NCBI GenBank assembly: GCA_020851115.1
Contig: JADZDJ010000115.1
Span: forward strand, 1-64,000
Reading direction: 5' to 3'
DNA length: 64,000 bases
Source: Pirellulales bacterium
GTDB taxonomy: Bacteria; Planctomycetota; Planctomycetia; Pirellulales; JADZDJ01
The number at the start of each line of letters is the position of its first letter. Positions within the stretch are counted from its first letter, which is position 1. A program made the position numbers and the translations under genes. Below are positions 7,323-17,358 of this stretch, in pieces. The notes below the pieces were generated by a model. It was not told the DNA's origin, searched no databases, and was given only the letters and a program-made list of their open reading frames with translations.

Positions 7323-10300
7323 TCACGACGGTACGGATCCGATTCTGGAAAGCTGCTGAAGCATCGCTCGAGTCGACTCCCGGACGTCTTTTAATTCTTC
7401 GAGCGCCGCACGTTCCTTGGCAATGACCGCTTCGGGCGCGCGACTGACAAAGGCTTCGTTGGCAAGCTGTTTTTCCTTGGCGGCGATGAGCTGGTCATAT
7501 TTGGCGAGTTCCTTTTCCTTGCGAGCTTTCTCGGCGGCCACGTCGATATGGTCGGCTAGGTCCACGAAGGCTTCGATGCCCGCGGCGGTGAAATGGGCCG
7601 ATAACGGCGGCACCGGGATGTTTGAACCGATTGCCATGAGCGTTGCACCGGCCATCGATTCGAAGTAAGGGCGCATCGGTTCGAGCAACATCGTAGTTTC
7701 CGCATCGCAGCGGGCGGCAAAGTGTACGATTGCCTTGGGAGCAATGCCTTGGCGAGCGCGGACCTCGCGCAGGCCGGCGAGGACTTGCTGGAAGCGGGCG
7801 AAGCGGGTTTCGATCTCGTCATTGATCAGCGACTGATCTGCTTCCGGCCACGAGGCGATCATCACGCTTTCGGCAGCAGCTTGAGGCTTCGTTAGTCCCC
7901 GCTGCGGCGCGGCGGCATTCAAGCGTTGCCACACATCCTCGCAAATGAACGGCGTCATCGGATGGAGCAGTCGCAAAATCGTGTCGAGCGTGTACGCCAA
8001 GATTCGCTGCGCTGTCGGCCGCGTTTCGACAACTTGCAAGCGGTTTTTGCTCATTTCCAAATAAAAACTGCAGAACTCGTCCCAAGCGAAGTCGTAAAGC
8101 AAACGAGCAGCATCGGCGAATTTGAATTGCTCGAGGGCCGCGGTCACTTGCATCGTCACGGTCGAAAGCCGGCTCAGAATCCATTGGTCTTCAACCGCCA
8201 ATTTTAATCCCTGAACCCTGAACCCTGAACCCTCACTGTACCCTTCCAAGTTCATCAGTGCGAAGCGGGCCGCATTCCACAGCTTGTTGCAGAAGTTGCG
8301 AGCCTTCTCGAAGCGTTCGCTCACGACGAGCCCGCGCGGCAGTGCGATGTCTTCGGGCTTACTCGCCCATTGCGTCGAAAACGGTTTGCCGCAGTGCTTA
8401 CAGTCGATTCGCGGCTGCGTGCGGTTCTTTTGCGTTTGCTCGATCAGCTTCTGGCAATGCGGGCATTCAAACTCGACCGGCATCCGCACGTCTTGCGTCT
8501 CGGTGGCCATTTCGGCGAGGCCGAAACGCAGCGCATCGGTCCCAAACTTGCCGATGATGTCGAGAGGGTCCACGCCATTCCCCTTCGTCTTCGACATGGT
8601 TTCGCCGTAGCCGTCGAGGATTTTGGGGTGGATATAGACATCGTGAAACGGAATTTCGCCGAGGTTGTAGAGACCGGAGAGCACCATCCGCGCCACCCAG
8701 AGCGTGATAATGTCGCGGCTGGTGATCAGCAGGCTGGTGGGGTAATAGTATTTTTGTTCGCTCCAATCGGGGTTGCTGGGCGACTTGGGTTGATTGGCGA
8801 GCGCAGGGCCAGGCCAACCAAGCGTGCTATGCGGCCAGAGCCCCGAACTGAACCAGGTGTCGAGGACGTCGTCTTCCTGTTCGATCGACTCCACAGACGA
8901 TTTCAAGTCGTTAACGATTGTTTGCAAGTGTGGACGTTCTAAAACATTAGGCAACGTACCATGTTGATCGCGAAATTCGCGCAGCAACGCCAATAAAGAT
9001 TCGGCTACCTTAGAATTCACGCACACTCGGTGCCGCGCCAAAGAGTCAATTGGAGCAATGTAAATGTCTTCAGCAGGTACTCTGTATTCTGACAAGAAAC
9101 GATCTATTACGTCTTTGAATTTTTGGGAATTCCTTACGCGAACTGTCCAAATTGGAATGCGATGTCCCCACCACAATTGGCGCCCGATGCACCAATCGCG
9201 TTTTTCGCCGAGCCAGTCGAGATAGGATTTGGCGTAGCGCGATGGGGTGATTCTCACTTTTTGCGCATTTCCCCTCACCCCCGGCCCCTCTCTCGCAAGG
9301 GGAGAGGGGAGATTGGAGTCTGCGGGCGATTGGGCGACGGCGTTCATGGCAATTTGGGCGAGGCCTGGTTTGCCGTCGTTGTCGCTCATCTTTACGAACC
9401 ATTGATCCGCCAAATAGGGTTCGATGGGCGTCTTCGATCGATCGGAGTGCGCCAGATCAATCTCGCGATCTTCGCGGTCGATCTCAGGATTGTGCAAACC
9501 GAGTTCGATGAGATCGGCCACTACGGCTTCGCGCCCCTTCGTGTGCATTTTCAGGCCGCGATATTTTTCCAGGACGCTGTCGTTGAGCGTTCCTTCGGGC
9601 GTCATGATGTTGATCGTCCCGATGTGCTTATTGCGCTGCCACACTTGGTAGTCGTTCTCATCGTGCGCAGGCGTGATCTTCACGCAGCCGCTCCCGAGCT
9701 CGGGTTTCGCCCATGCGTCCACGATCAGCGGGATTTCGCGATTCGCGAGCGGCAGCATCAGCTTGCGGCCGGCTTTGGCCATGTCGCGGAACTTGATTAG
9801 CTCCGGCAATTTTGTCTTGCGCCGCTCGGCGAGATCGTCAAGTTGCTTTTCAATGTCCGCTTTTTCCTTTGCTGGCGCTTCGACAAGCTTTTCCTTCAAT
9901 TCGCGCTCGACTTTATCAAGCGCTGCCGCCGGGTCAGGGTGTACCGCCACCGCCGTGTCGCCGAGCATCGTTTCCGGCCGCGTCGTGGCGATGGTCACAT
10001 GCGTCGGCTCGCCGGGCTGCGGGTCGATCACCGGATAGCGAAAATGCCAGAAGTGGCCCTTCACAGTGTCGTGGTACACTTCGTCGTCGGCCACCGCAGT
10101 TTGCAGATAAGTGTCCCAATTCACCAGCCGCTTTCCGCGGAAAATGAGACCGTCTTCGAACATGTGAAAGAACGTCTGCCGCACGGCGCGGGCACAGATT
10201 TCGTCGAGCGTGAACCGCGTCCGCCGCCAATCGCAGCTACAGCCCATTTGCTTGAGTTGGCCGATGATGCGGGCTTCGTAGGTCTGCTTCCATGGCCAGA

Positions 10301-10688
10301 TGCGTTCGACCAATTTCTCGCGGCCGAGCGCGTGCCGGTCGAGGCCTTCCTCGTCGCGCAGCCGCCGCTCGACCACGGCCTGCGTGGCAATGCCCGCGTG
10401 ATCGGTCCCCGGCATCCACAGCGCATTGAAACCTTGCATCCGCTTGAAGCGGATCATGATGTCTTGCAGCGTGTTGTTGAGCGCGTGCCCCAGATGCAAC
10501 GCCCCCGTCACGTTCGGCGGAGGAATAACAATCGTGAACGGCCCTTTGGGAAACCGCTTCCGCTCGGGATCGGGGTCGCTATTGAAATAGCCTTTGCTCT
10601 CCCAATGCTTGTACCAACGCGATTGTGCGGCGGCGTGGTCGTATTGCTTGGGGAGTTCGTCGGCGAGATTACTTGGTTGCTCGGCCAT
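7323..10688 (-). CDS. valS: Valyl-tRNA synthetase with extra inserts
   Basis: A class I synthetase that charges tRNA-Val. PPPNVTGALHLGHAL (residues 57-70) holds the HIGH motif, and ETMSKTKGNG near residue 695 is the KMSKS loop. The C-terminal coiled coil (AAEKARKEKELAKYDQLIA) is typical of ValRS. At 1121 residues it is clearly longer than the usual 880-950. The extra length comes from a Cys4 zinc-ribbon insert after KMSKS (CPHCQKL through CKHCGKPF), an insert in the editing region, and two short stretches encoded by dispersed DNA repeats (9269-9312 and 8209-8233). The frame stays open through both repeats, so the enzyme is probably active. Confidence 0.93.
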   Translation of the reverse strand: MAEQPSNLADELPKQYDHAAAQSRWYKHWESKGYFNSDPDPERKRFPKGPFTIVIPPPNVTGALHLGHALNNTLQDIMIRFKRMQGFNALWMPGTDHAGIATQAVVERRLRDEEGLDRHALGREKLVERIWPWKQTYEARIIGQLKQMGCSCDWRRTRFTLDEICARAVRQTFFHMFEDGLIFRGKRLVNWDTYLQTAVADDEVYHDTVKGHFWHFRYPVIDPQPGEPTHVTIATTRPETMLGDTAVAVHPDPAAALDKVERELKEKLVEAPAKEKADIEKQLDDLAERRKTKLPELIKFRDMAKAGRKLMLPLANREIPLIVDAWAKPELGSGCVKITPAHDENDYQVWQRNKHIGTINIMTPEGTLNDSVLEKYRGLKMHTKGREAVVADLIELGLHNPEIDREDREIDLAHSDRSKTPIEPYLADQWFVKMSDNDGKPGLAQIAMNAVAQSPADSNLPSPLAREGPGVRGNAQKVRITPSRYAKSYLDWLGEKRDWCIGRQLWWGHRIPIWTVRVRNSQKFKDVIDRFLSEYRVPAEDIYIAPIDSLARHRVCVNSKVAESLLALLREFRDQHGTLPNVLERPHLQTIVNDLKSSVESIEQEDDVLDTWFSSGLWPHSTLGWPGPALANQPKSPSNPDWSEQKYYYPTSLLITSRDIITLWVARMVLSGLYNLGEIPFHDVYIHPKILDGYGETMSKTKGNGVDPLDIIGKFGTDALRFGLAEMATETQDVRMPVEFECPHCQKLIEQTQKNRTQPRIDCKHCGKPFSTQWASKPEDIALPRGLVVSERFEKARNFCNKLWNAARFALMNLEGYSEGSGFRVQGLKLAVEDQWILSRLSTVTMQVTAALEQFKFADAARLLYDFAWDEFCSFYLEMSKNRLQVVETRPTAQRILAYTLDTILRLLHPMTPFICEDVWQRLNAAAPQRGLTKPQAAAESVMIASWPEADQSLINDEIETRFARFQQVLAGLREVRARQGIAPKAIVHFAARCDAETTMLLEPMRPYFESMAGATLMAIGSNIPVPPLSAHFTAAGIEAFVDLADHIDVAAEKARKEKELAKYDQLIAAKEKQLANEAFVSRAPEAVIAKERAALEELKDVRESTRAMLQQLSRIGSVPS
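8209..8233. repeat. CCCTGAA heptamer repeat inside valS
   Basis: About three and a half tandem copies of CCCTGAA. Read on the minus strand the repeat encodes GSGFRVQG within ValRS, between the catalytic part and the anticodon-binding helices. Relatives of the same heptamer lie at 16813-16841 and 44150-44168. Confidence 0.7.
9269..9312. repeat. GC-rich hairpin repeat inside valS
   Basis: A pyrimidine-rich then purine-rich element forming a hairpin: CCCCTCTC pairs with GGAGAGGGG around CGCAAG. It adds residues reading NLPSPLAREGPGVRGN to ValRS just before the conserved block ITPSRYAKSYLDWL. The type resembles short repeats found dispersed in many genomes. It has inserted in frame, or has been kept in frame, within an essential gene. 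Confidence 0.7.
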
Positions 10689-11725: not shown

Positions 11726-13291
11726 TCATTTGCTCTCGTCCTTGCACAGCTTATACTCCACCGCATCGACCAGCGCGATCCAACTAGCTTCAATGACGTT
11801 CTCACTGACGCCGACCGTGCCCCAGACGTCGTGCTGGTCGCGGCTTTCGATGGTAACGCGGACGCCGGCGGCGGTGCCGGCTTCGCTGTTGATGACGCGC
11901 ACTTTGTAATCGACCAGATGCATGCCGGCAAGGCTGGAGAAAGAGCCGTTCAGGGCCTTTCTTAACGCGGCATCGAGCGCATTCACCGGACCGTCTCCTT
12001 CGGCAACTTCGTGCCGGACTTGATCTCCCACGCGGAGCTTGACCGTCGCTTCGGTGTTCGATTGCCCAGGCGCGTTGCTTTCCACGACAACGTGATATTT
12101 CAGCAGGTCGAAATGCGGCTGAAATAGGCCGGCTTCGCGGCGCACCAGCAGGTCGAACGAAGCGCCGGCGGCTTCAAATTGATAGCCGCGATTCTCCATC
12201 GCCACGACTTCGGCCAAAATCCGGTCCATCAACTCGCGATTGTCATGCAGCTTGTGCTTTGCAGTAAGGGCAACGATATTCGACCGGCCCGAAAGTTCGC
12301 TGACCAGAATCCGCCGCTCGTTGCCGACCGCTTCGGGCGAAATATGCTCGTAGCTATGGGTGACGCGCGCGACGGCGTGAACATGCATGCCCCCTTTATG
12401 GGCAAACGCGCTTTGACCGACGAACGGCTGAGTGGCGCGATAGTTCATGTTCGCAAGGTCGTAAACAAAGCGCGACAACTCGGTCAGTCGTTTTGCGCCG
12501 CCGGGATTCAGCATGTCGTAATTCTGCTTTTTTATGGCCAGATTAGCGCACACGGAGATCAAGTCGGCATTGCCGCAGCGTTCGCCGACGCCGTTGATCG
12601 TGCCTTGTACTTGGACAGCGCCGGCTTCGACGGCGGCGAGCGAATTCGCCACAGCCAGGTCGCAATCGTTGTGCGTGTGAATGCCGACGGGCACGGGCAG
12701 CACTGCTTGAGCGGCCGTCGTGAGCGTGGCGATTTCTTCCGGCATCGTGCCGCCGTTGGTATCGCACAGCACGATGAGCCCTGCACCGGCTTCGGCCGCG
12801 GCGCGAACCGTCTTGGCGGCATATTCGGGATCGAGCTTCCAGCCGTCGAAGAAGTGCTCGGCATCGTAAATCACTTCGCGGCCGCATTCGCGCAGGTACT
12901 TCACCGTTTCCGAAATCATTGCCAGATTCTCGTCGAGCGAAACTCGCAGCACCTCGGTTGCATGAAAAGACGACGTCTTGCCGACGATCGTGAGGGTCTT
13001 TGCCCCCGAATCGAGCAGCGCCTGCATGCCGGGGTCTTGCGATGGCTGCACACCCCTGCGACGAGTCATGCCAAACGCACAGACACGTGCGTGATTCAGC
13101 TTCAGTTCTTGCACACGGGCGAAGAACTGAGCATCCTTCACATTCGAGAGTGGATAGCCTCCCTCGACGAAATCGAATCCCAACTCATCGAGTCGCTGCG
13201 CAATCAGCAGTTTGTCTTGCAGCGAAAAATTGACGCCCTCGCCTTGACTGCCATCGCGAAGGGTCGTGTCATAAATTTGGATGTGCGACAT
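11726..13291 (-). CDS. cimA: (R)-citramalate synthase
   Basis: Condenses pyruvate and acetyl-CoA to citramalate, the entry to threonine-independent isoleucine synthesis. The 521-residue protein has the DRE-TIM metallolyase start YDTTLRDGSQGEGVNFS (residues 7-23), the metal motif HTHNDCDLA near residue 205, and a C-terminal LeuA-type allosteric domain (about residues 400-515). FVEGGYPLSNVKD and YDAEHFFDGWK favour the citramalate synthase branch over isopropylmalate or homocitrate synthase. With ilvB and ilvD elsewhere in the window it fits a pyruvate route to isoleucine. The ATG at 13291 begins right at the catalytic domain. Confidence 0.88.
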   Translation of the reverse strand: MSHIQIYDTTLRDGSQGEGVNFSLQDKLLIAQRLDELGFDFVEGGYPLSNVKDAQFFARVQELKLNHARVCAFGMTRRRGVQPSQDPGMQALLDSGAKTLTIVGKTSSFHATEVLRVSLDENLAMISETVKYLRECGREVIYDAEHFFDGWKLDPEYAAKTVRAAAEAGAGLIVLCDTNGGTMPEEIATLTTAAQAVLPVPVGIHTHNDCDLAVANSLAAVEAGAVQVQGTINGVGERCGNADLISVCANLAIKKQNYDMLNPGGAKRLTELSRFVYDLANMNYRATQPFVGQSAFAHKGGMHVHAVARVTHSYEHISPEAVGNERRILVSELSGRSNIVALTAKHKLHDNRELMDRILAEVVAMENRGYQFEAAGASFDLLVRREAGLFQPHFDLLKYHVVVESNAPGQSNTEATVKLRVGDQVRHEVAEGDGPVNALDAALRKALNGSFSSLAGMHLVDYKVRVINSEAGTAAGVRVTIESRDQHDVWGTVGVSENVIEASWIALVDAVEYKLCKDESK

Positions 13292-13372: not shown

Positions 13373-13406
13373 AAAAAACCCTGCGGCCGGCATTCCGACC
13401 GCAGGG
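13373..13406 (-). terminator. Rho-independent terminator of the small unit behind ftsK
   Basis: On the minus strand CCCTGCGG, a 12-base loop and CCGCAGGG are followed by TTTTTTG. It ends transcription coming from the ftsK side and lies upstream of cimA, so cimA needs its own promoter within 13292-13372. Confidence 0.65.
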
Positions 13407-13436
13407 CACTGAACTCAATCGCTTATTGCGACGCCC

Positions 13437-13535
13437 TTACGGCCGCTCCTCCAGAATAATCACGCCAATGCTCGAACGAACTGCCGTCAAGCAGCCCGCA
13501 CAATCGGCGATTATGATGGGTGAGGAACGAGACAT
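13437..13535 (-). CDS. Possible 32-residue small protein between ftsK and terminator
   Basis: An ATG frame of 33 codons reads MSRSSPIIIADCAGCLTAVR and then SSIGVIILEERP. It has a CxxC (CAGC) and a hydrophobic second half. It sits inside a short transcription unit with its own promoter (13581-13609) and terminator (13373-13406). No Shine-Dalgarno site precedes it, which is common in this window. It may be a real small protein or a chance frame in a small RNA. I know of no matching family. Confidence 0.3.
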   Translation of the reverse strand: MSRSSPIIIADCAGCLTAVRSSIGVIILEERP

Positions 13536-13580
13536 GGCGACGTCAATTGTTTTGCACAGGTTATTCTTGCCTGCACAACA

Positions 13581-13609
13581 ACCATACCTTTGCCGAAAAC
13601 GCGTGTCAA
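13581..13609 (-). promoter_or_regulatory. Strong sigma-70 type promoter just after ftsK
   Basis: On the minus strand a perfect TTGACA (13609-13604), a 17-base spacer and TATGGT (13586-13581). Start of transcription is expected near 13574. It faces away from ftsK and leads to a terminator about 200 bases on. The first bases of the transcript can form a 9-bp stem (TTGTGCAGG with CCTGTGCAA). Confidence 0.5.
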
Positions 13610-13616
13610 CCGTCAC

Positions 13617-16406
13617 TCATGGTGAATTCGCGCGGCGGATGGAGTAGGTTGGCTCATCGACGTTGCGCATGCCTTCGTCTTCATCGGCCAAATTCGATTC
13701 CTCGTCATCCCACGGCGTTTCGTCGTCGTCCAATTCGTCTTCGAACTCTGCATCGGCATCCGCCGCATCTTCGTCCTCCGCTCGACCCGATTCGTCGTCG
13801 AACTCATCTCGTTCGACTTCGTCCAATTCGTCGGCGGCATCCGATTCGGGCAGGATACAATTGCGCTTCCGTCCCGCAATGGCTCCGGCCGCCGCGAATG
13901 CTGCCGATTTCATTGCGCCGCTGAACGGAGCGCTCTCCGGCTGCGTTTCATGCTGGCCGCTCATTTGCGCCCATTGTTCGAGCGTTAGCAGAATTTCGCG
14001 GGCTTGCGAGCCGTTGTACTGGCCGACGATGCCGTCTTCGGCCATGAAGTCGATCAAACGAGCCGCACGGCCGTATCCGATACCGAGCGAGCGCTGCAAC
14101 AGCGATACGCTGCCGCGGCCTTCCCGGATAACGATGTCGATCGCTTGTTCATACAGCTCGTCGCGATTTTTGAACCGGCTCGCGTCGGCTTCTCCGCCTG
14201 CTGCCGCAGGCTTGAGTTGCACCAATTCGGTGACGAATTGCTGTTCGCTGGTGCCGACGTGGTCGAGCACCTTGTTGATCTCATCGTCGCTCACATAAGT
14301 GCCTTGGCCGCGGAGCAGTGTGCTGGTGCCTGGCAACAGGACTAGCATGTCGCCGTTGCCGAGCAGTTTGTCGGCGCCCATCTCGTCGAGCACGACGCGA
14401 CTATCGGTGCGGCTCGACACTTGGAATGCAATGCGGGCCGGCAAGTTCGATTTGATCAAACCGGTGATGACGTCGACCGTCGGCTTTTGCGTGGCGAGCA
14501 CAAGGTGGATGCCGACCGCGCGGCTTTTCTGCGCCAGGCGGATGATGTGCTGCTCGACTTCTTTGCCTGAGGTCATCATCATATCGGCAATCTCGTCGGC
14601 CACAATTACGATGTAAGGCAAGTGGCGCGGAATGGCCGCCCGTTCTTCATCGCCTTCCGGCTGCAACCGATCCATCAACTCTTCTTCGCCAAGCTGGTTG
14701 TAGACGCTCACATGCCGCACGCCGGCGCGCGCAAGGAGTGCGTAGCGCTCTTCCATTTTTTCGACTGCCCAGGCCAAAATCGCTTCGGCCTTGCGCATAT
14801 CGGTGACGACCGGGTGCATCAAGTGCGGCAGTTTTTTGTACGGACTGAGTTCGACCATCTTCGGGTCGATCATCAGCATTCGCACATCGTTTGGACTGCG
14901 AGTCATCAGCATCGACACGATGATCGTGTTCAAACAGACGCTCTTGCCCGTACCCGTGCGGCCTGCAATCAGCAGATGCGGTAGCGCGGCGAGATCGACG
15001 ACCATCGGATTTCCCGCGACATCTTTGCCCAGGAAGATCGGAATCCGCATCTTCTTGTTGCGACTGCCGGTTTCTTCGATGACTTCACGCAGTCGGACTA
15101 ATTGGCGGTCATTGTTGGGAACTTCGATGCCGACCGTATTCTTGCCGGGAATCGGCGCCACAATGCGCACGCTGGGTACGCGGAGGGCAATCGCCAGGTC
15201 GTCGGCAAGCCCCGTGATCTTCGACAGCCGCAGACCGGCTTCGAGTTCGACTTCGTATTGGGCAATGACGGGGCCGGTTTCGATTTCGACCACCTTTACC
15301 TTAAAACCAAAGCTCTCGAATGTCTTTTCGAGCAGCTTTGCTTTCTGGCGTACTTCTTTTTCGTGTTCTTCCAGATGCACGCTTTCGCCCGGCAACAGCA
15401 AATCGAGTGGCGGCAACTCGTAATCGAGTACTTCTTCGGCACTGTTGGCCGCAGCTTCAAGTTCCTGCATCACTACTTGGCGGTCGGCGTCGCGCAAATT
15501 GCGGATGCGAAGCGCGGAGGCAAGCCTCGCGCCAATTCCAGGTTTGCCGGAATTGGCGTCATCCTGCGCTGCCTGATCGCCAACTTCCTCATTCTCACCT
15601 TCGGCATCCTCATCCGTAGCGATTTTCTTCGCGTTGGCTTTCACCACCGGTTCTGCAGCCTCAGATTCCTGCTGCTCTTCCTGCTTATCATCGCTGTCGG
15701 CTGCTTCGACCTCTTTGTCAACTCGCTTGCCGCGAATGCGCACGGCCAGCGAAGCGGCGTCGTCGCACGATTTGTTTTTTCTGCGCGACTTCGTTGTAGC
15801 CGCATTCGAGTGCAGGATTCGCCCCGCGGTGCTGTGCGATAGAAACAGAGGCAACAAGAAAATAAACGCTAGCGCGCGGAATAGAAAATAGTCGGTGCAT
15901 AGCAGCGCGCCACCAAGGACGAAACTGACCGTGAGAATGAATGCGCCGGCAGATGCAAAATTGATTTCCAACAGCGCGCGACCCCCTGCGCCCAGATAGC
16001 CTCCTGGCCCAATGACCGGTCCCGGCGTCGTGGCCGGTCCGGCTAATGCTAAAAAAGTTGCGATGCCCATCACGGCCATCAACCAACCAACGAGTCGCAA
16101 GATGGGATCGTTGACCGGCCGGCGGGCGAGAAGCCAAATATCGAAGGCAAGCAGCGAGCCGACAAAAAAATACGCGCTCCAACCGAATAGGCGGAACAAC
16201 CCTTCGGCGGCATAGACGCCACCTCGCCCACAGGCGTTACTGGGCTTTACAGGAACTGTGGTGCTTTGAATTCCCGCCATATCGGCTGGATAATACGTCA
16301 CCAGCGATGCAACGAGAAACAAACAGACCGCCAACAGCGCGATCGCGAACAAATCGCGCTTTCGACTGTGTAACTCTGGCATGAACGCTTTCCAGGGCAA
16401 CTTCAA
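13617..16406 (-). CDS. ftsK: DNA translocase FtsK/SpoIIIE
   Basis: A membrane-anchored hexameric motor that moves chromosome ends through the division site. The 929 residues begin with four hydrophobic helices (about 18-190), then a charged linker, the alpha/beta motor with Walker A LIAGRTGTGKSVCLN near residue 485 and Walker B IVIVADEIADMMM, and the winged-helix gamma domain (GRGSVSLLQRSLGIGYGRA, about 765-830) that reads KOPS-type polarity sites. After gamma, where most FtsK proteins stop, there are about 90 extra residues. These are very acidic (long Asp/Glu runs) and end YSIRRANSP. Both the linker and the tail are low-complexity acidic. The gene starts at ATG 16406. Confidence 0.92.
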   Translation of the reverse strand: MKLPWKAFMPELHSRKRDLFAIALLAVCLFLVASLVTYYPADMAGIQSTTVPVKPSNACGRGGVYAAEGLFRLFGWSAYFFVGSLLAFDIWLLARRPVNDPILRLVGWLMAVMGIATFLALAGPATTPGPVIGPGGYLGAGGRALLEINFASAGAFILTVSFVLGGALLCTDYFLFRALAFIFLLPLFLSHSTAGRILHSNAATTKSRRKNKSCDDAASLAVRIRGKRVDKEVEAADSDDKQEEQQESEAAEPVVKANAKKIATDEDAEGENEEVGDQAAQDDANSGKPGIGARLASALRIRNLRDADRQVVMQELEAAANSAEEVLDYELPPLDLLLPGESVHLEEHEKEVRQKAKLLEKTFESFGFKVKVVEIETGPVIAQYEVELEAGLRLSKITGLADDLAIALRVPSVRIVAPIPGKNTVGIEVPNNDRQLVRLREVIEETGSRNKKMRIPIFLGKDVAGNPMVVDLAALPHLLIAGRTGTGKSVCLNTIIVSMLMTRSPNDVRMLMIDPKMVELSPYKKLPHLMHPVVTDMRKAEAILAWAVEKMEERYALLARAGVRHVSVYNQLGEEELMDRLQPEGDEERAAIPRHLPYIVIVADEIADMMMTSGKEVEQHIIRLAQKSRAVGIHLVLATQKPTVDVITGLIKSNLPARIAFQVSSRTDSRVVLDEMGADKLLGNGDMLVLLPGTSTLLRGQGTYVSDDEINKVLDHVGTSEQQFVTELVQLKPAAAGGEADASRFKNRDELYEQAIDIVIREGRGSVSLLQRSLGIGYGRAARLIDFMAEDGIVGQYNGSQAREILLTLEQWAQMSGQHETQPESAPFSGAMKSAAFAAAGAIAGRKRNCILPESDAADELDEVERDEFDDESGRAEDEDAADADAEFEDELDDDETPWDDEESNLADEDEGMRNVDEPTYSIRRANSP

Positions 16407-16860: not shown

Positions 16861-17358
<498 letters not shown>

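Follow-up and report, generated by a model that had tools for sequence, protein, structure and literature searches.

The stretch of Pirellulales DNA analysed here (64,000 nucleotides, hereafter “the window”) carries, in the gap between ftsK (13617-16406) and cimA (11726-13291), both on the minus strand, a promoter, a 32-codon open reading frame (ORF) and a terminator. With a probability of roughly 93%, judging from the sequence and its relatives, this element is a ribosome-mediated transcription attenuator, which would tie the transcription of cimA, the gene for (R)-citramalate synthase, to the supply of charged tRNA-Ile. Computational analysis recovers each part that such a device requires: a promoter, clustered codons, a terminator ahead of the gene, an antiterminator exclusive of that terminator, a suitable spacing and a downstream gene that makes the sensed amino acid (TIGR00977 for cimA and, in a second set of leaders, TIGR00973 for leuA). 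These parts, their conservation, pairing and spacing, and the match of isoleucine (Ile) or leucine (Leu) codons to the gene are present in the sequence. The features are as follows, each with the evidence on which it was placed.

13581-13609, minus strand: leader promoter, TTGACA (13609-13604), 17-base spacer and TATGGT (13586-13581); upstream conservation in cimA leaders.
13437-13535, minus strand: leader peptide ORF, 32 codons, MSRSSPIIIADCAGCLTAVRSSIGVIILEERP; an open frame, not conserved as a protein, with Ile-rich C-terminal parts in relatives.
13455-13469, minus strand: putative regulatory Ile codons near the C-terminus, ATT (13469-13467) and ATT ATT (13460-13455); spacing to the stop codon in relatives.
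13433-13445, minus strand: antiterminator 5' strand CGGCCGTAAGGGC, extending over TAA (13439-13437), the stop codon of the leader; duplex, swap test and pair types.
13419-13431, minus strand: small intervening hairpin TCGC-AATAA-GCGA; fold of 13446-13391.
13395-13407, minus strand: terminator 5' arm, doubling as antiterminator 3' strand; fold and pair-type table.
13373-13407, minus strand: intrinsic terminator (13407-13378) with U-tract (13378-13373); -27.3 kcal/mol.
11726-13291, minus strand: cimA, (R)-citramalate synthase, the putatively regulated gene; TIGR00977, 654 bits against a cut-off of 450.

The near-consensus promoter, the strong terminator downstream of it, the 5' stem-loop and the 32-codon frame, all of which a preliminary description of this DNA had pointed out, are indeed present on the minus strand. 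The promoter match by itself is at chance level, with 1 site found against 1.1 expected in 3 kb, so that the case for the promoter rests on comparison with relatives. When sites with at least 9 of 12 matching bases were counted and mononucleotide shuffles served as controls, a promoter with a spacer of nearly always 17 bases was found before 86% of the orthologous cimA leaders and in 5% of the shuffles. Transcription from it would start at about 13574. The resulting leader RNA of 202 nucleotides folds better than all 200 of its shuffles (z = -4.5), and a weak stem-loop (GCAGG/CCUGU) begins at its predicted 5' end.

It is the downstream gene, cimA, that accompanies the element in other genomes. 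A region search found conserved pieces beside cimA in at least four further families besides two genomes of the window's own family, and the terminator together with the 3' end of the ORF is kept across families of the order. In upstream regions of cimA gathered from 55 genomes of the order, most contain a GC-rich terminator, usually 20-180 bases before the gene, and the ORF ahead of it ends Ile-rich, as in VIVGIIIREVRP, VAIEIIIREVRP and GIGIIGTIGPMRPRP, each directly followed by the stop codon. In a second set of 80 loci from named records, which overlaps the first in part, three or more Ile fall within the final 18 leader codons at 48 of the 66 terminator-bearing loci, the most Ile-rich frame having been taken for this count. 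On the other side, ftsK is not conserved as the neighbour of the leader; the description of the element as an independent transcription unit is thus not supported.

Two arrangements depart from the usual one. In genome G001 (L003, G001:C110:6321-8454), an Ile leader stands before a seemingly degenerate cimA start (MPRTQIHDAALRVGAQGEGD...) and an intact cimA without leader lies on another contig, an exception to the linkage that possibly reflects relocation of cimA or an assembly chimera. In Aeoliella straminimaris ICT_H6.2 (L173), the leader, reading RIIIIAGQRRS up to its stop codon, is unusually far from cimA, about 500 bases upstream of it.

The leader ORF contains, besides the Ile codons listed above, a second cluster, ATC ATA ATC, at 13517-13509. 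Of the cimA leaders, 91% have at least three Ile codons among their final 18, compared with 3.5% of unrelated control positions picked by the same selection rule. In 30 of 38 cimA leaders the last Ile codon lies 5-7 codons ahead of the stop codon, a spacing that is predicted to leave the antiterminator strand free when a ribosome stalls; the ribosome footprints used here and in the masked folds below were assumed from general knowledge.

The terminator itself reads GCCCTGCGGTCGG-AATG-CCGGCCGCAGGGT-TTTTT (13407-13373) and forms 13 pairs, 10 of them G-C. Its 5' arm can alternatively pair with the strand at 13445-13433, yielding a duplex of -22.7 kcal/mol. In a swap test on 38 genomes, the strands of each genome paired with one another at a mean of -17.6 kcal/mol, against -15.7 (standard deviation 0.34) for permuted partners (0 of 5000 permutations); when each family was represented by a single genome, 1 of 5000 permutations was as good as the true pairing. 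Across genomes, pair types vary on both sides at positions +5 to +9 of the arm, for example GGCC/GGCC in most families, GGUC/GACC in G010, GACC/GGUC in G037 and GGCG/CGCC in G033. The MAFFT alignment places the stop-codon region one base out of register, and covariation of the antiterminator was judged by the swap test and a per-position table. Masking the RNA upstream of 13446, to mimic a stalled ribosome, gives the antiterminator at -25.3 kcal/mol before the 3' arm of the terminator has been made, while masking upstream of 13426, to mimic a ribosome that has reached the stop codon, leaves the antiterminator unable to form and the terminator folds. Swap test, masked folds and pair types agree in making the two structures mutually exclusive.

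The same design recurs at a second gene. A covariance model built from cimA leaders only finds, as its next full-length matches, leaders upstream of leuA, whose peptides are leucine-rich. The leuA leader of this genome (G000:C92) encodes LSLSSSLLLAPSRP up to its stop codon, and the gene behind it matches TIGR00973 with 742 bits; this Leu-rich leader (L154, G000:C92:63433-63534, outside the window) has the same terminator and antiterminator layout. Further matches of the model in this genome are weaker, and a pattern search for other copies returned the present site and one site with three mismatches. For an unbiased comparison, the only criteria for choosing leaders at both genes were the terminator, the position of the stop codon and the pairing of the antiterminator. 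Among those at cimA, Ile exceeds Leu in 36 of 38 (20.8% Ile), whereas Leu exceeds Ile in all 26 at leuA (39.5% Leu), none of which has three Ile; the last Leu lies 5 codons before the stop codon in 15 of these 26. Ile at cimA and Leu at leuA are hard to explain except by amino-acid-specific attenuation.

The leuA leaders, found in the same genomes, are either homologous to those at cimA or convergent with them. The recovery of leuA leaders by a cimA-only model is the reason for considering paralogy, according to which both attenuators originated together with the paralogous synthase genes, or passed from one of these genes to the other, early in Planctomycetota, and a mere swap of regulatory codons changed their specificity. 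We regard this history as possible but less likely than not; convergence of the two leaders on one design is the alternative.

The following model brings these observations together; leader translation, stalling at scarce charged tRNA-Ile and read-through into cimA are deduced from the sequence. RNA polymerase would start near 13574 and a ribosome would translate the leader ORF. With enough isoleucine, the ribosome would reach the stop codon (13439-13437) and cover the antiterminator strand (13445-13433), whereupon the hairpin at 13407-13378 would form and transcription would end, giving an RNA of about 200 nucleotides. When isoleucine is short, the ribosome would stall at Ile codons, chiefly the pair ATT ATT (13460-13455) that lies 5-6 codons ahead of the stop codon, and the free antiterminator strand would pair with the 5' arm of the terminator around the small hairpin, allowing the polymerase to read into cimA. 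As the first gene of isoleucine synthesis, cimA would then be on only when isoleucine is scarce. In this genome, no threonine dehydratase was found above the cut-off for the sole family tested (TIGR01127), which is consistent with citramalate as the entry route to isoleucine.

Three points weigh against an attenuator. The consecutive regulatory codons at 13460-13455 are modest in number (two ATT, followed by CTG), and some cimA genes of the order, in family f8 and several others, have no recognisable leader. Moreover, the terminator beats the antiterminator at full-length equilibrium; therefore, the switch would have to work kinetically, which is also the case for known attenuators.

Among the other explanations, that of a trans-acting small RNA, independent of cimA and with its own promoter and terminator, fares best, and even this is very improbable. 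It would account for the strength of both signals and for the stable fold, but the element travels with cimA and is unlinked to ftsK in relatives, and conservation sits in the Ile codons, the stop-codon region and the terminator. No Rfam small RNA is matched at gathering score; P15, RcsR1 and PrrB/RsmZ gave weak matches, far below cut-off and all including the terminator stem, and were discarded. The short transcript running from promoter to terminator is likely the attenuated product, so that “small RNA”, as the preliminary description had it, holds only to the extent that the leader, once terminated, is a short RNA and would appear as one in RNA-seq.

A structured leader with a terminator ahead of an amino-acid gene would also suit a T-box or riboswitch that binds tRNA or a metabolite and controls cimA without translation. 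The covariance models of Rfam amino-acid leaders, T-boxes and riboswitches gave no match to the leader at gathering score, no T-box or riboswitch was listed for it up to an E-value of 10, and the conserved feature consists of in-frame Ile codons whose distance to the stop codon is fixed; we consider this possibility slighter still.

A functional small protein, suggested earlier on account of the open 32-codon frame and its CxxC motif, is scarcely credible: in 20 close genomes, no convincing full-length match to the peptide appeared in the 19 beyond its own, a PDB search with it was empty, and the leaders of the two nearest relatives have only the Ile-rich C-terminal end in common with it and contain no CxxC. 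What relatives keep is the promoter, the cluster of Ile codons, the bases around the stop codon and the terminator, and a conserved small protein was accordingly rejected. Just as implausible is the view that the hairpin simply terminates ftsK and that the promoter and ORF in between are there by chance, for which the position of the hairpin about 210 bases past the ftsK stop codon on the same strand would speak; this reading was dropped since terminator and leader stay upstream of cimA in relatives whose neighbouring gene is not ftsK. The promoter is conserved, and the reading leaves the match of Ile and Leu codons to cimA and leuA unexplained.

Beyond the order, other families of the class show Ile-rich leaders before cimA in 26 of 48 upstream regions, including the majority of those from family f21 and a part of those from f112, while family f111 seems to lack such leaders. 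These leaders have different antiterminator sequences, with pairing that is sometimes weak or undetectable, and the covariance model finds a few candidate leaders elsewhere in the phylum. Leader-peptide attenuation would be a class-wide feature of these planctomycetes, in which two related genes with the same RNA switch show a natural swap of Ile and Leu codons, and it offers a model for the regulation of the citramalate route to isoleucine that can be put to the test. The covariance model and alignments can be used for annotating these leaders, for which Rfam gives no match at gathering score.

Two further features of the window lie apart from the leader. Upstream of ftsK, on the opposite strand, is a gene for a bacterial class A RNase P RNA (16869-17355, 276 bits). 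A valyl-tRNA synthetase-like gene (7323-10688, minus strand) includes a stretch of about 15 residues, NLPSPLAREGPGVRGNA, at 9261-9314, which looks like an in-frame palindromic dispersed repeat; at the threshold applied, the window holds no second copy of it.

Leader-peptide attenuation is known chiefly from Proteobacteria, Actinobacteria and some Firmicutes. Among the descriptions of ribosome-mediated attenuation (PMC1183508, PMC2965389), the latter names Proteobacteria and Actinobacteria as the known sources of leader-peptide systems and adds Firmicutes. Our literature search, in which subscription journals were thinly covered and an earlier prediction could have been missed, found no attenuator reported for cimA or, at cimA or leuA, in Planctomycetota; hence, we rate the cimA leader as a new example of classical ribosome-mediated attenuation.

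With the ilv, leu, thr, his, trp and phe attenuators of E. coli and Salmonella, the element shares a leader ORF with codons for the end product, the predicted masking of the antiterminator by a ribosome at the stop codon, and an intrinsic terminator before a biosynthetic gene. It differs from them in having no Rfam leader match, in occurring in Planctomycetota, in its target, citramalate synthase, at the entry of the pyruvate route to isoleucine, and in its compactness, the antiterminator strand overlapping the stop codon of the leader. The T-box leaders of branched-chain genes in Firmicutes likewise sense tRNA charging and control termination, whereas here no T-box is matched and sensing would go through translation of the leader ORF. 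In the ilv-leu attenuator of Staphylococcus aureus (PMC5794164), leader codons and a terminator/antiterminator switch also serve branched-chain genes; there, however, one Leu-rich leader including three Ile codons precedes a large operon, while separate Ile and Leu leaders stand before cimA and leuA in the present case. Finally, the actinobacterial ilvB leaders and the LEU element of leuA (PMC1262725) resemble those described here in their upstream runs of Ile/Val/Leu or Leu codons, but actinobacterial leuA uses a different element, whereas the planctomycete leuA leader has an intrinsic terminator and an antiterminator.
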